Below, in pieces: positions 33,895-39,708 of a stretch of 64,000 nt of DNA. The notes beneath the pieces were generated by a model. The model worked only from the letters and a program-made list of their open reading frames with translations. It was not told the origin of the DNA and ran no database searches. The stretch comes from Psychrobacter sp. M13. Lineage in GTDB: Bacteria; Pseudomonadota; Gammaproteobacteria; Pseudomonadales; Moraxellaceae. Both the position numbers and the translations under genes were made by a program. The stretch is from NCBI RefSeq assembly GCF_030718935.1, contig NZ_CP132194.1:1302001-1366000 (forward strand). The letters run 5' to 3'. The number at the start of each line of letters is the position of its first letter. Position 1 is the first letter of the stretch.

Positions 33895-34136
33895 CAATAA
33901 GTTCTAAAGCCCGTGCTACTTAAAACGCTCTAGCATAAGAGGTGTCAGTATCTGACAAGTTAATTGACGGGCAAGTCACCTATAGTAGACGAATGTTGGT
34001 GAAATTATGATTAAAATGGACTTACAAATAGTAGCCGCTATAGTAAGTGTAATTTATGAATAAAGTAAGTCTAATATTATTAACCAACACCAGTCTCTAT
34101 CCGCTAAAAAAATACTATTCTCTAAGCTCAAAAATA

Positions 34137-34634
34137 ATGCGTGTAAGTGGTAGTAGTATTATGACTTGCACATTATTATTAACCAGTGGTTGTTTGGCTG
34201 AGAATACTAGTGAAGAGCTTGCCGATACGACTACTAAAGAGGCGGCTCTTGAATTACAAAGACAGCAAGATATCGCTGACATTGAAGACAACATTATCAA
34301 CTCTTATGCACGCCTAGCGGCCAAGCGCCCTGATCTGTGTCCCAAGATACTGCAAAAAGAGACTGACAATGATGTGATAGAACGAGTAAACGAGGTGATG
34401 GTGGACAGTTCTTGTGACTACTATCTATATCCAGAGGTCAATCAACGCCTCAAAGTTACCCTTAACACCGATCAAATTGAAGCGCTGCTGATTGTACCGA
34501 CCTTGCACAATTTCGCTAACGGCGATTATCTAGTGGAGTCCTATGATAAGCATGTGATTCGGCTGAACTATATTGGATCTAAGTATAAGCCTGGGCGCCT
34601 CAATTATGATGTAAAGATTGAAGTCAAAGAGTAG
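34137..34634 (+). CDS. Hypothetical lipoprotein
   Basis: 165-residue protein, not recognised. The segment MTCTLLLTSGC is a lipoprotein signal end with its cysteine at residue 19 if translation starts at the ATG at 34137. The frame is open back to an ATG at 34056, but that would put 45 residues before the cysteine, unusually long. The mature part is acidic (EELADTTTKEAALELQRQQDIADIED, a short helical stretch), followed by a small domain with cysteines in PDLCPKIL and SSCDYYLYPEV. It sits between the M15 gene and the convergent M16 pair. Confidence 0.65.
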   Translation: MRVSGSSIMTCTLLLTSGCLAENTSEELADTTTKEAALELQRQQDIADIEDNIINSYARLAAKRPDLCPKILQKETDNDVIERVNEVMVDSSCDYYLYPEVNQRLKVTLNTDQIEALLIVPTLHNFANGDYLVESYDKHVIRLNYIGSKYKPGRLNYDVKIEVKE

Positions 34635-34663: not shown

Positions 34664-36229
34664 TTATTCTAAATCTGCATTCCAAGGACTATCTTGTCCT
34701 ACGGTCACGATCAAGAACTTGTCAGGGTTAAGGGTGTTGTTTAAGGTTTGATTGACATCGGTAAGGTTAACTTTATCGATACGATTCATATAGTCCGTCA
34801 AATAATTATCAGGCAGCTGATAAAAATTCATCATACCTAGTAAATTATTGATACCTGCATTACTCGCAAAGCTCATCGGAAAGCTGTTTTTTAGATTATC
34901 AGTAGTTAGTCGCATCTCAGACGCTGTTATCCCTTGGTCTAAAGTATCATCTATCACTTTTATACTGGCGTCTATAGCGGTGCGAGCTTTATCATTACGC
35001 GTTGAAAAGCCGATTTGATAAGGGCCGCGCGTCAGCATTGGACTCATTGAGCCTGATATGCCATAAGTCAGTCCAAGGTTTTGTCTTATCTCAGTCATCA
35101 ACCGCGCATTAAAGTCGCCTCCTGCTAACACCTCATTACCCACCGCAAAGTTGGTCTGCTGTTGCTGGGCTTGCGCGTCAGTGGCGCGTTTATTACCTAA
35201 TTGACCCATCAGCACCGTAGTTTGGGTACTTGGGAAATCGATATGGATGCGCTGAGCTTGGCTCAAGGCTTTGGGTTCAGGTAGCGTGCCTGCGGCTTGA
35301 CCAAGCGGAAGGTTGGCTGTAATAGTCTCAGCAATCATACGTGCTTGCTCTAAAGTCATATTCCCCGTCATCGCTAGCGACGCATTCGCCGCTACTAAAT
35401 AGCGATCTTTAAAAGCGATTAAGTCTTGGCGCTCAATACTTGGCACGCTCTCAAGAGTACCTGATGAGGGGTGAGCATAAGGGTGCTCGCCGTACAAGGC
35501 TTTATCAAAGGCAAGGCTGGCAAGACTGCTAGGGTCTTGCTTTTGCTGTTGTAATCCAACTAATAATCTGGCCTTGTTACGCGCTAGGATCTCTTTGTCA
35601 AAGGTCGGTGTCGTTAGCATCTGAGTCATCAGATCTACAGCAGGCAAGAGATGCTCGTCATCAGAGAGACTACGCAAGGATACGATAAACATATCTTTAT
35701 AAGCGCTGCTGTTTAGGTTAATGCCTAAAGTCTCAACCGCGCGAGTAAAGTCATCCTCCGCTAAATTTTGCGTGCCTTGGGTCAGCATAGTGGCGCTCAT
35801 GCTGGCAATACCAAAGCCATTTGAATCATCCATGCGTACATCACCATCGCGAGCGCTACCTGCGTTAAAGCGCAAGTCAATATCGACGATAGGCAGAGCC
35901 GCTGCCTGCACGAATGATACGCGCACGCCAGCTTGAGTCGTGAAGTGCTCAATACTAGGAACAGTAACGCTCAAAGGCTGGACATCATCAAGGCTAGTGA
36001 GCGTCGCTAGGGCTGCGATAGGCGCGTCAGCATCCACCATAGCAGCCGCTCTCTCAGATTCAAATGCAGCTTCAGCCGCATGCGCTTGCATATTTAACGC
36101 TGCAAAACTCATGAATAGAGCTGCGCTTAAAGCGGATAACGATTTATAATTTGGGCTTGATGTTTTATTAATGGATACTTGATTACTTGATATCTTATTA
36201 ACAGTAGCGGTTATTTTTAATTTTGACAT
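34664..36229 (-). CDS. M16-family zinc-protease-like protein, non-catalytic partner
   Basis: 521-residue exported protein with a signal peptide ending around AAL..AHAA (residue ~52). It has the M16 two-domain layout, but the metal motif is lost. Where active members have HxxEH, this one has GIASMSATMLTQGT, with Ser, Ala and Thr in place of the three metal residues. The C-terminal half keeps M16 features (RLMTEIRQNLGLTYGISGSM, the R/Y substrate-binding pair). The upstream gene on the same strand is the catalytic partner, 91 bases away. Such active/inactive M16 pairs form heterodimers in known bacteria. Confidence 0.9.
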   Translation of the reverse strand: MSKLKITATVNKISSNQVSINKTSSPNYKSLSALSAALFMSFAALNMQAHAAEAAFESERAAAMVDADAPIAALATLTSLDDVQPLSVTVPSIEHFTTQAGVRVSFVQAAALPIVDIDLRFNAGSARDGDVRMDDSNGFGIASMSATMLTQGTQNLAEDDFTRAVETLGINLNSSAYKDMFIVSLRSLSDDEHLLPAVDLMTQMLTTPTFDKEILARNKARLLVGLQQQKQDPSSLASLAFDKALYGEHPYAHPSSGTLESVPSIERQDLIAFKDRYLVAANASLAMTGNMTLEQARMIAETITANLPLGQAAGTLPEPKALSQAQRIHIDFPSTQTTVLMGQLGNKRATDAQAQQQQTNFAVGNEVLAGGDFNARLMTEIRQNLGLTYGISGSMSPMLTRGPYQIGFSTRNDKARTAIDASIKVIDDTLDQGITASEMRLTTDNLKNSFPMSFASNAGINNLLGMMNFYQLPDNYLTDYMNRIDKVNLTDVNQTLNNTLNPDKFLIVTVGQDSPWNADLE

Positions 36230-36320: not shown

Positions 36321-37751
36321 TTATTTACTCGCTGCGTCTTTCGGCGGTATCACTTGCATCACCGTCAAATTGTCATTGACCAAATACTTTTTACTAGCCG
36401 CTTGAATATCCGCGACCGATACGCGATCTAACTTAGCAGGTAAGCTGGCAAGCAATCGATCATCGAGACCGATAGACTGCATGGATCCAATCATCCGCGC
36501 TTGTCCTGCCATGCTGTCTTGCGCGTACACTAGGCTTGTGACAGTATTTGTTTTGGCACGATTGATCTCATCCGCTGCGATAGGGTCTATTGCTAATTTA
36601 TTGATCTCATTAGTAATAGCTTGTTGCGCCTGCTCTAAGCTGACGCCTGCGCGGGGTGTCGCTTGAATTAAAAATAAACCATCACCACGATCTAGCAAGT
36701 CATAGGAGGTGCCAACAGTGGCAAGCAGACCTTGCTCGCGAATGAGGTGACTCTCAAGTCTTGCTGATAGACCACCATCTAATACGTCCTGTGCCAGTGA
36801 TAGCGCATAAGCTTGCTTTTCATTAGCACTGCCAATAGTCAGCAAACTTGGTACGTTGTAACCCATCAATAATACTGGCACTTGTACCGCTTGCTCGGAC
36901 TCTACTTTTTTATAACCGCGAAACCCTTGCTGGGTCACTGCTGGCCGCGCTGGCAGCTCGCTTGGTGTCAGCTGACCAAAATAGCGTTTTACTTGTGCCA
37001 ATACCTCACTTGGCTCTACATCCCCTACGATAACCAAAGTTGCATTATTGGGCGCATACCAAGTGCTATACCAGTCTTTTAGCTCGGGTAAAGTGATAGA
37101 TTCCAGCTCATTCATTGGCCCAATGACTGATTCACCTTTAGGGCTATCAGGCATTGCGAGCAATCGAAAGGATTCGTACGCTTTTGCTAAAGGGTTATCA
37201 TCGGTACGCTGACGGCGCTCCTCCATCACCACCTGATGCTCCTTAGCAAATTCACTTTCATCAAATAACAAATTGGTCATTCGATCCGCTTCTAGCTCTA
37301 ATGCTAATGGCAAGCGATTAGCTGGGAACAGCTCATAGTAGCCTGTGTAATCGTAGCTAGTAAAAGCATTATTGGTGCCACCAAATTTTGCAATCAAACG
37401 CTCATAATCATCGCTAGATACTGCACTGGTGCCCTTGAACATCATGTGCTCTAGCAAATGCGAGATTCCGCCTTTATCGATTGGCTCATCGGTAGAGCCG
37501 ACGTTATACCATATTTGGGTCATCACCACAGGCGCGCGGTGATCTTCTTTGACAATGATTTTAAGCCCGTTATCCAGCTTATACTCATGACGACCAGATA
37601 GGTCTATAGCCAAGGCCGACGACGCCTCATTATTTTGCATAGCAGCTACAGTACTGGGTGTAGAGACATCTGAGGTAAGCGTTTGGCAAGCACTAAGCGC
37701 GGTGGTGAGTGCTAAGGCAAAAGCTACCTGTAAGATATGAGATGACGACAT
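36321..37751 (-). CDS. M16-family zinc metalloprotease, lipoprotein
   Basis: 476-residue catalytic subunit of an M16 pair. The signal segment VAFALALTTALSAC ends in a lipobox (cysteine at residue 22), so it is probably anchored to a membrane on the periplasmic side. The inverted zinc motif GISHLLEHMMFKGT (HxxEH) lies about residue 100, with the distal glutamate region in EFAKEHQVVMEERRQR about 75 residues on. The C-terminal half shows SARLESHLIREQGLLATVGTSYD. Two very small lipoprotein genes lie upstream on the same strand, the nearer ending 58 bases before this start. Confidence 0.92.
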   Translation of the reverse strand: MSSSHILQVAFALALTTALSACQTLTSDVSTPSTVAAMQNNEASSALAIDLSGRHEYKLDNGLKIIVKEDHRAPVVMTQIWYNVGSTDEPIDKGGISHLLEHMMFKGTSAVSSDDYERLIAKFGGTNNAFTSYDYTGYYELFPANRLPLALELEADRMTNLLFDESEFAKEHQVVMEERRQRTDDNPLAKAYESFRLLAMPDSPKGESVIGPMNELESITLPELKDWYSTWYAPNNATLVIVGDVEPSEVLAQVKRYFGQLTPSELPARPAVTQQGFRGYKKVESEQAVQVPVLLMGYNVPSLLTIGSANEKQAYALSLAQDVLDGGLSARLESHLIREQGLLATVGTSYDLLDRGDGLFLIQATPRAGVSLEQAQQAITNEINKLAIDPIAADEINRAKTNTVTSLVYAQDSMAGQARMIGSMQSIGLDDRLLASLPAKLDRVSVADIQAASKKYLVNDNLTVMQVIPPKDAASK

Positions 37752-37809
37752 AGACTTTTCTACTTATAAATGATGATAAAATATGAGCGTTCAATTTGAG
37801 TATTAAAAA

Positions 37810-37932
37810 CTAGAGAGCTTTTGCTATATCAGTAATCAAAATTGCGGTAGGCTCTAACGCTCTTAGCGTACTACAACCCGATACCGAAAAACATGATATC
37901 GATAAAACAAGGGTATAAACAATTTTATTCAA
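37810..37932 (-). CDS. Very small lipoprotein 2 (40 residues)
   Basis: Short frame from TTG at 37932 (GGATGGA seven bases upstream; an in-frame ATG at 37944 would add four residues) to TAG at 37810-37812. It begins MNKIVYTLVLS, has a hydrophobic core and lipobox SVSGC with the cysteine at residue 20, and then a 20-residue mature part (STLRALEPTA...AKAL). The mature part resembles that of the next small gene upstream: both have GCST, then E/K-PTA and a K-L ending. No known family was recognised. The paired, similar lipobox frames with ribosome sites support real genes. Confidence 0.55.
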   Translation of the reverse strand: MNKIVYTLVLSISCFSVSGCSTLRALEPTAILITDIAKAL

Positions 37933-37968
37933 TGATGAGTCCATCCTATACAATACTTAAAAATTGGA

Positions 37969-38127
37969 TTATAAAGACTTACTCGCACCAACCATAATGC
38001 TAGCTGTGGGTTTAAACTCTTGCGTAGTGCTACAGCCAGTCGCAGATACCGTTATAATCGTTAGCAAAACGGCTGCGCTTATAGCGGTGACTTTATGAGT
38101 TAGCTTTTTCTTAGAAGTTGATAACAT
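37969..38127 (-). CDS. Very small lipoprotein 1 (52 residues)
   Basis: Frame from ATG at 38127, with AAGGA seven bases upstream, to TAA at 37969-37971. The sequence starts MLSTSKKKLTHKV, continues with a hydrophobic stretch AAVLLTIITVSATGC (lipobox, cysteine at residue 32), then a 20-residue mature peptide STTQEFKPTA...SKSL. Basic n-region, hydrophobic core and lipobox are all in place. It ends 36 bases before the start of the second small lipoprotein. Both precede the M16 protease pair on the same strand, suggesting one transcript. Confidence 0.65.
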   Translation of the reverse strand: MLSTSKKKLTHKVTAISAAVLLTIITVSATGCSTTQEFKPTASIMVGASKSL

Positions 38128-38376
38128 GGCTTTTCCTTATACTATTATGAGCCCGTCAAACATGCAAACATGGCGTAAGCATAGGGGATAACTGGCAAAC
38201 TTAAGGTCATAATTTTGTGTCCTAATCTTAAGCTCATCTTACTCAATTGACTAGGATGAATGCTGAGCATACCTAGAGTTATGCTAAACTAGGCAAAATA
38301 CAATTTATACCAAGCGCATTTTATTATAAGTCAAAATCACTGAATAAAAACTCTTGATAACATTTAGGTCAAATTT

Positions 38377-39708
38377 ATGAATAATACTAATAATAGCAGT
38401 CGTGTCGTCATTAACCTTGACGGCAGTCTTGATGAATTAGATGACGATGATATCACGCTACCCAGTATGCCTGCGCAGTCTGTCGCTATTGTTGATGAGC
38501 CTGACGTTGCAACCGTAGAAGATAGTAAAGATATAGTCGATAGAGACTTATCTAGCGTAACAGCGGTAGGCAATATAGCTCTGGGTGCTCCTTTGATTAC
38601 GCCTGAGCTTGATAAGACCCAACTTGATAAGAATGAACAGGTTGCGATTAGCCATCACAATGTTGAAGATGAATCAGCGCAAATTGATATACCGAAAATG
38701 CCGCTACAGGCACAGTTAGGAGATAATGCCGACTCTGCAACAGAGCAGCAGGATGATGAGCCACAAGGCAGTCAAAAAGGCAGCTGGTTCAATCGGATGA
38801 AGTCGGGACTGAGCAAGTCGCGTAAGAATTTGGCTGGCGGTATGGTCAATATCTTAATCGGTGGTAAAGAGATCGATGATGAGCTGTTAGAAGAGGTCGA
38901 AGATCAGCTATTGGTCGCTGATATCGGGGTCAATGCGACCAATCGTATTATCAAGAATTTGACCGAACAGACTGATCGTGGTGATTTGATTTATGCGCAT
39001 TCGCTCTATAAAGCGCTGCAAACTGAGCTGGTTGATATTCTCACACCTAAAGTCGCGCCCCTAATAATCGATACCACCAAAAAGCCCTTTGTGATTTTAG
39101 TAGTCGGAGTTAATGGCGTAGGCAAAACTACCACTATCGGCAAGCTGGCTAAGCGATTACAAGGCGAGGGCAAGTCCGTAATGCTAGCCGCTGGTGATAC
39201 GTTCCGTGCGGCGGCGACCGAGCAGCTACAGATTTGGGGTGAGCGCAATGATATTCCAGTGGTCGCTCAAGGTCATGGCTCAGATAGCGCCTCTGTTATT
39301 TTTGACGCTATGCAGTCGGCTAAAGCCAAAAACATCGATGTGTTAATTGCGGATACGGCTGGACGCTTGCAGAACAAAGCCTACTTGATGAATGAGTTGG
39401 AAAAAGTCGTACGGGTTATGCGTAAAGCTGATCCAAGTGCGCCGCATGAAGGGATGATTGTTCTTGATGCAGGCACAGGCCAAAACGCGATTAATCAAGT
39501 TGAGCTATTTAATAAAGTTGTGCCGTTAACAGGGATTACCATTACCAAACTCGATGGTACCGCAAAAGGTGGTGTCGTCTTTAATATTGCTGAAACTACT
39601 GATGTGCCTATTCGTTATATAGGAGTCGGTGAGTCGATAGATGATCTACGCGCCTTTAGTCCTAAGCAGTTCGTCGCCGCCCTGTTTGAGACCGATGATA
39701 AAGAGTAG
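38377..39708 (+). CDS. ftsY: Signal recognition particle receptor FtsY
   Basis: GTPase that docks SRP-ribosome complexes at the membrane. The acidic, poorly conserved A domain (about residues 1-135, many Asp/Glu/Gln) leads to the N domain (SWFNRMKSGLSKSRKNLAGG) and the G domain. Motifs are VVGVNGVGKTTTIGKLAKRL (G1, about residue 243), then AAGDTFRAAATEQL, DVLIADTAGRLQNK (G3) and ITKLDGTAKGGV (G4). At 443 residues it is the expected size. ftsE and ftsX do not follow; ogt is 45 bases downstream. Confidence 0.96.
   Translation: MNNTNNSSRVVINLDGSLDELDDDDITLPSMPAQSVAIVDEPDVATVEDSKDIVDRDLSSVTAVGNIALGAPLITPELDKTQLDKNEQVAISHHNVEDESAQIDIPKMPLQAQLGDNADSATEQQDDEPQGSQKGSWFNRMKSGLSKSRKNLAGGMVNILIGGKEIDDELLEEVEDQLLVADIGVNATNRIIKNLTEQTDRGDLIYAHSLYKALQTELVDILTPKVAPLIIDTTKKPFVILVVGVNGVGKTTTIGKLAKRLQGEGKSVMLAAGDTFRAAATEQLQIWGERNDIPVVAQGHGSDSASVIFDAMQSAKAKNIDVLIADTAGRLQNKAYLMNELEKVVRVMRKADPSAPHEGMIVLDAGTGQNAINQVELFNKVVPLTGITITKLDGTAKGGVVFNIAETTDVPIRYIGVGESIDDLRAFSPKQFVAALFETDDKE

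Follow-up and report, generated by a model that had tools for sequence, protein, structure and literature searches.

Two very small lipoprotein genes, lipA and lipB, lie between ftsY and a pair of M16 genes in Psychrobacter sp. M13, and our analysis confirmed that both are genuine and conserved. Since the core of their mature peptides is common to three genera in which it sits at different loci, it is the peptide that is conserved and not the neighborhood. We propose, at somewhat less than an even chance, that LipA and LipB represent a micro-lipoprotein family of Psychrobacter, Moraxella, and Acinetobacter whose members are anchored in the outer membrane and dock as a strand on an envelope partner. 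The window, meaning the whole stretch of 64,000 nucleotides that was analyzed, comes from a 3.2-Mb genome whose LipA is identical to that of Psychrobacter immobilis 1184 (L262). The features discussed below are the following.

37969..38127, minus strand: LipA precursor gene, 52 codons plus stop, ATG start; 88 of the 100 Psychrobacter genomes searched have a match free of internal stops
37972..38034, minus strand: LipA mature peptide, 21 codons counted from the lipobox Cys
37810..37932, minus strand: LipB precursor gene, 40 codons plus stop, TTG start; alternative in-frame ATG at 37944
37813..37875, minus strand: LipB mature peptide, 21 codons counted from the lipobox Cys
36321..37751, minus strand: M16a, M16 peptidase with HLLEH and a lipobox; a neighbor
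34664..36229, minus strand: M16b, M16-fold protein without HxxEH; a neighbor
38377..39708, plus strand: ftsY, divergent neighbor; TIGR00064 above cut-off
38157..38243, minus strand: conserved noncoding block in the ftsY-lipA interval; pattern found in 45 of 57 named loci

The lipA and lipB genes

According to the initial annotation, a basic n-region, a hydrophobic core, and a lipobox mark each of two minus-strand frames, one 52 and the other 40 codons long. The sequence bears this out, and the spacings given for them, 36 bases between the two frames and 58 bases from the second to the M16 lipoprotein gene, are correct. The 52-residue LipA precursor consists of MLSTSKKKLTHKVTAISAAVLLTIITVSATG followed by the mature part CSTTQEFKPTASIMVGASKSL, and the 40-residue LipB precursor consists of (TTG)NKIVYTLVLSISCFSVSG followed by CSTLRALEPTAILITDIAKAL. 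Counting the Cys, each mature peptide has 21 residues rather than the 20 first reported, and 8 of these are identical between the two. A profile alignment of LipA with LipB gave a probability of 97.1%, and by this comparison LipB is a diverged paralogue of LipA.

Ribosome sites had been assigned to both genes. That of lipA is good, with AAGGA ahead of the ATG, while that of lipB is weaker. The 40 codons reported for lipB fit a start at the TTG at 37932, but the coordinates reported with them, 37810 to 37944, correspond to a 44-codon reading from the in-frame ATG at 37944, which directly abuts its AGG; either codon may be the start. When the gap between ftsY and M16a was shuffled 2,000 times with dinucleotides preserved, at least one lipobox micro-ORF, as defined by our filter, arose in 4 shuffles and two arose in none.

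Selection on the mature peptides

Mature LipA is under strong purifying selection, a property that the initial annotation had proposed checking. Read as descriptive figures, because the rows compared are related to one another, pooled pN/pS values for LipA were 0.15 in the mature part (pN 0.108, pS 0.721; 48 distinct mature sequences) versus 0.59 in the signal peptide (the 15 codons before the Cys), and those for LipB were 0.26 and 0.55, respectively (19 sequences); for closely related pairs (pS below 0.45), the values in the mature part were 0.14 for LipA (43 pairs) and 0.12 for LipB (12 pairs).

Synonymous sites are thus free while the amino acids are constrained, which argues against a mere RNA or leader role. 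If the frame served M16a only as a leader peptide or as an upstream regulatory frame, and not as a functional protein, it would be expected close upstream of M16a, and it does lie there (52 to 241 bases from the approximate M16a start in the named Psychrobacter loci, with a median of about 101). We nevertheless find such a role scarcely credible, given that synonymous sites are near saturation with the amino acids kept, that the core is retained in Acinetobacter away from M16, and that an Rfam search returned no match.

Distribution and neighborhood in Psychrobacter

Conservation in close relatives, likewise put forward for checking, was found: of 100 Psychrobacter genomes, 88 have LipA and 20 have LipB. 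LipA had matches at E <= 0.1 in 90 genomes, and the count of 88 leaves out two with internal stops (G035 and G093). Matches to LipB numbered 27 at E <= 0.1 and 20 at E <= 2e-5, the latter being the count used here. LipB was always accompanied by LipA in the same gap (20/20, including L034), and the gene order was A-B-M16 in 12 of these loci and B-A-M16 in 8.

Using the peptide pattern [KR]PTAS[VI][MLI]VG[AG], we also scanned 84,980 species, each represented by one genome. This returned 58 stretches, 57 of which were confirmed, all from Psychrobacter. LipA was present in each of these 57 named loci, a divergent ftsY in 55, M16a on the same strand in 56, M16b in 56, and LipB in 11; the loci without ftsY or M16a start at a contig end or sit on a short contig. 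The description of the neighboring genes as an active and an inactive M16 protein holds, in that both have Pfam M16 domains and HLLEH is present in the first but no HxxEH in the second.

In 50 distinct gaps ahead of M16a, and on the minus strand of the region scanned here, our own scan detected no terminator-like site; a promoter scan of this region gave 5 promoter-like sites against 6.3 expected. The lip genes may be cotranscribed with the M16 pair in Psychrobacter, without depending on M16. Directly ahead of the M16a start, at 37752 to 37780, is a TTTATATAAGTAGAA-like stretch that recurs in the relatives compared. It could be a separate promoter or translation signal for M16a, which would weaken the single-operon reading.

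Two further features were seen at this locus. The noncoding block at 38157 to 38243 consists of GCTTAAGRTTTGGACACAAAAATCTGACC, about 12 bases, and then AACTTCGCCTACTCT. It is strongly conserved, at about 201 bases from the start of ftsY in most loci and at 83 to 435 bases from the first lip start, and may belong to ftsY, to lipA, or to both. At the far end of the cluster, a plus-strand frame of 192 amino acids (34056 to 34634) is convergent with M16b and had no Pfam or NCBIfam match above cut-off.

Twelve of the 100 Psychrobacter genomes lack LipA. All 12 keep M16a and M16b, located elsewhere, and no ftsY match was found in the approximately 1.5-kb flanks of the pair. A gene that reads by its sequence as MnmG-like stands beside the M16 pair in all four of these loci that were read gene by gene (L066, L067, L068, and L072). 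The relocated pair may reflect one rearrangement inherited by one clade, so these 12 genomes are weak evidence either way.

Relatives in Moraxella and Acinetobacter

Intact copies of the small gene were found in 13 of 22 Moraxella-like genomes, with M16a adjoining in all 13; one copy has the same sequence as a protein named Moraxella sp. (P0197). Acinetobacter-like genomes gave a short-frame match at E <= 1.7e-5 in 44 of 60 cases, 30 of which were read as protein, and one further genome (G187) carries a diverged copy at the same site, bringing the total to 45. Copies from this group are identical to proteins named Acinetobacter (e.g., P0123), and the source entries of the Acinetobacter relatives include A. 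baumannii, A. pittii, and A. lwoffii. The Acinetobacter-like precursors are about 33 to 36 amino acids long, with mature parts such as CSSMNVRPTVGVSVGTSI.

The mature parts of the relatives have 18 to 21 residues with the core P-T-[AVG]-x-V-x-[VMI]-G. The shared core can be written, with a few exceptions, as C-x(4-9)-P-T-[AVG]-[STG]-[VI]-x-[VMI]-G, and the last residue is usually hydrophobic. The lipobox Cys that opens the mature part is invariant in four alignments (A1 to A4). In an order-wide search of 293 genomes, matches outside the Moraxellaceae reached E values no better than 8.5e-5; most lay in longer frames and ended in the signal peptide, with a few in short frames. For the remaining genera of the Moraxellaceae, the search relied mainly on a Psychrobacter-only profile. 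Genomes in which these searches found no small gene number 12 of the 100 from Psychrobacter, 9 of the 22 that are Moraxella-like, and 15 of the 60 that are Acinetobacter-like. With whole groups of genomes lacking it, the gene is not essential in general.

The setting in Acinetobacter is a different one. A gene that we take to be of the DUF442 type lies near the small gene in 29 of 30 loci checked and is sometimes in tandem with a diverged copy of itself (among L105 to L107, L118, L119, and L124 to L153). Conversely, in all 10 Acinetobacter-like M16a loci read, a pattern search showed ftsY, M16a, and M16b adjoining without the small gene. The small gene therefore moves, and the ftsY-M16 array stands alone.

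Relationship to the M16 pair

The initial annotation regarded the four exported or anchored products (two small lipoproteins and two M16 proteins) as one envelope module. The lipoprotein genes, their Psychrobacter neighborhood, and the lack of a terminator-like site agree with this view, but a single module across lineages does not emerge: LipB is present in only 20 of 100 Psychrobacter genomes, 12 of these genomes have no LipA, and the Acinetobacter arrays lack the small gene in 10 of 10 cases, so the four genes are not kept together. Co-occurrence with the M16 pair, also suggested for checking, took the form of adjacency in Psychrobacter (56/57) and in Moraxella-like genomes (13/13), but the genes are apart in Acinetobacter. 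What looks like a module from the gene neighborhood of a single genus may fail to hold up in a wider comparison.

A direct link could still take the form of the lipopeptide acting as an effector, inhibitor, or preferred substrate of an M16a/M16b protease chamber, with the genes forming a module. M16 enzymes bind short peptides via strand pairing, and a mature peptide of 21 residues is a fitting size for an M16 chamber. Beyond the adjacency in Psychrobacter and Moraxella, a close M16a relative (E <= 1e-118) is present in 33 of 60 Acinetobacter-like genomes, and although the genes are apart there, the small gene occurs in 32 of these 33 genomes versus 13 of the 27 without such a relative (Fisher p 1.3e-5, uncorrected for kinship). 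We nonetheless consider this link unlikely. Those 13 Acinetobacter-like genomes have no close M16a relative and yet carry the small gene, and the 12 Psychrobacter genomes without LipA keep both M16 genes. A tree of the DUF442 gene from 58 genomes offered 3 independent supported pairs, with 1.6 to 1.8 on average pointing the same way and almost none the opposite way, and the tree-aware sign test, from these 3 independent pairs only, gave a median p of 0.5. The Acinetobacter co-occurrence keeps the link to M16 open without showing it.

Family models, structure, and names

Neither Pfam nor NCBIfam gave a match to LipA at E <= 1, and for LipB there were two, both far under cut-off. Across 24 members of the family, the Pfam models matched at E <= 1 were PF08139, PF13978, and PF10794 only. 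The first, a generic lipoprotein-attachment model, was matched by 4 of the 24, and its cut-off was reached by 2 of 10 members scanned in detail, over residues 1 to 18. The remaining matches of these 10 members were under cut-off and fell mostly in the signal peptide, with some extending into the mature part, which no family model covers above cut-off. The initial annotation knew of no described system with this makeup, and in keeping with this, the generic attachment model was the only one above cut-off. Searches of the open-licence literature on Psychrobacter and Acinetobacter small lipoproteins, A. baumannii small proteins, and the M16-ftsY context, covering the opening lines of abstracts, turned up no account of the family. 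Source names are hypothetical protein and lipoprotein, along with the conflicting automatic names VirB7, LpoB, colicin release lysis protein, and YcfL.

Several candidate relationships were considered and set aside. NCBIfam matches below cut-off to Rz1-like, IglE, and PhrK models enter the mature part in some members and were regarded as chance. The Psychrobacter profile also touched frames of 471 to 472 amino acids, which look by eye like serpin-type lipoproteins; the three that were read share only the lipobox and K-P-T, and kinship with these larger lipoproteins was rejected. A C-terminal outer membrane protein beta-signal was dismissed because the distance from the Gly to the C terminus varies, as judged by eye. 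There may also be a likeness to the N terminus of OprM-type efflux channels.

AlphaFold, run on 44 sequences, gave a mean pLDDT of 63.9, with the signal-peptide helix at residues 3 to 29 and an unstructured mature part (pLDDT about 50). Such a mature part is expected if the peptide folds on a partner, although a single-chain model of low confidence cannot count as evidence of docking. A PDB sequence search with the LipA profile found no chain at E <= 10.

Proposed function

In the mechanism that we propose, the LipA and LipB precursors would be exported by Sec, lipidated, and cleaved at the Cys. Under the +2-residue rule for lipoprotein sorting, the lack of Asp at +2 would direct them to the outer membrane. 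The peptide would then be tethered through its first mature residues, leaving the P-T-x-x-V-x-V-G stretch to join, as an added strand, a single conserved envelope protein such as an outer membrane barrel or assembly machine. Once docked, the strand would assemble, hold, or gate this partner. In an extended form that we regard as distinctly unlikely, one lipid-tethered strand, duplicated in Psychrobacter with Gly (LipA) or Asp/Asn (LipB) at position 16, would make up nearly the whole mature product and would tune an envelope machine, possibly the M16 chamber, which is its companion in two genera and tends to occur along with it in a third.

The mature product amounts to hardly more than a lipidated peptide, and its sequence is conserved while that of the signal peptide is not; both points would also suit a lipopeptide that is released or carried on vesicles and serves as a signal to other cells or to the surface. 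Most specificity signals vary between species, however, and this core varies very little; moreover, no receptor, exporter, or processing gene accompanies the small gene in all three genera. We judge signaling to be very unlikely.

Lipoproteins of this size are of interest on several counts. With 18 to 21 residues, the mature part comes close to the minimum size for a conserved gene product that is exported, and a conserved unit so short can be synthesized, so its partner can be sought directly. The Acinetobacter relatives also mean that an apparently unstudied envelope component is common to a medically important group.

Comparison with known systems

Very small or small lipoproteins are also found among the entericidins, the colicin lysis proteins, and the phage proteins Cor and Llp, the last two of which act on an outer membrane receptor. 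A receptor-occluding or membrane-active role of the Cor/Llp, spanin, lysis, or entericidin type is hinted at by subthreshold matches to Cor, Rz1-like, and spanin models (best E 0.00048, phrog_1119) and by one source that calls an Acinetobacter copy "colicin release lysis protein." Yet all of the NCBIfam Cor matches are below cut-off and, where ranges were seen, they cover residues 1 to 23, mainly the signal peptide; in the two members examined in detail, model NF047972 was matched over positions 1 to 23 of 78 with 14.2 and 15.6 bits against a cut-off of 31. The LipA/LipB family has chromosomal neighbors that are fixed within each genus, and no entericidin or colicin-lysis Pfam family was matched by any of the 24 members at E <= 1. 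We therefore hold a role of this type to be highly improbable.

LptM (YifL; NF047847, PF13627) resembles LipA and LipB in being a small lipoprotein with a short conserved motif at the mature N terminus and docks on an outer membrane machine (PMC10567701). The LipA/LipB motif differs, and no match exceeded the NF047847 cut-off of 27.7 bits; 3 of 24 members matched at E <= 1, the best with E 0.062 and 13.4 bits. LipA as a stand-in for LptM was rejected, as a separate LptM-type match above cut-off is present in 26 of 29 genomes (17 of 19 in the genus); the genome of the window itself has LptM-type matches below cut-off only.

VirB7 is likewise a small lipoprotein; its disordered N-terminal region binds a partner, VirB9, and its mature length is normally 30 to 45 residues (PMC3093366), compared with the 18 to 21 residues of the LipA/LipB family. 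No T4SS, VirB9-type, or VirB10-type genes are among the identified neighbors (ftsY, the M16 genes, and the DUF442-type gene). Docking of LipA and LipB on an envelope partner would thus most likely be analogous to that of LptM and VirB7, with membership in neither family.
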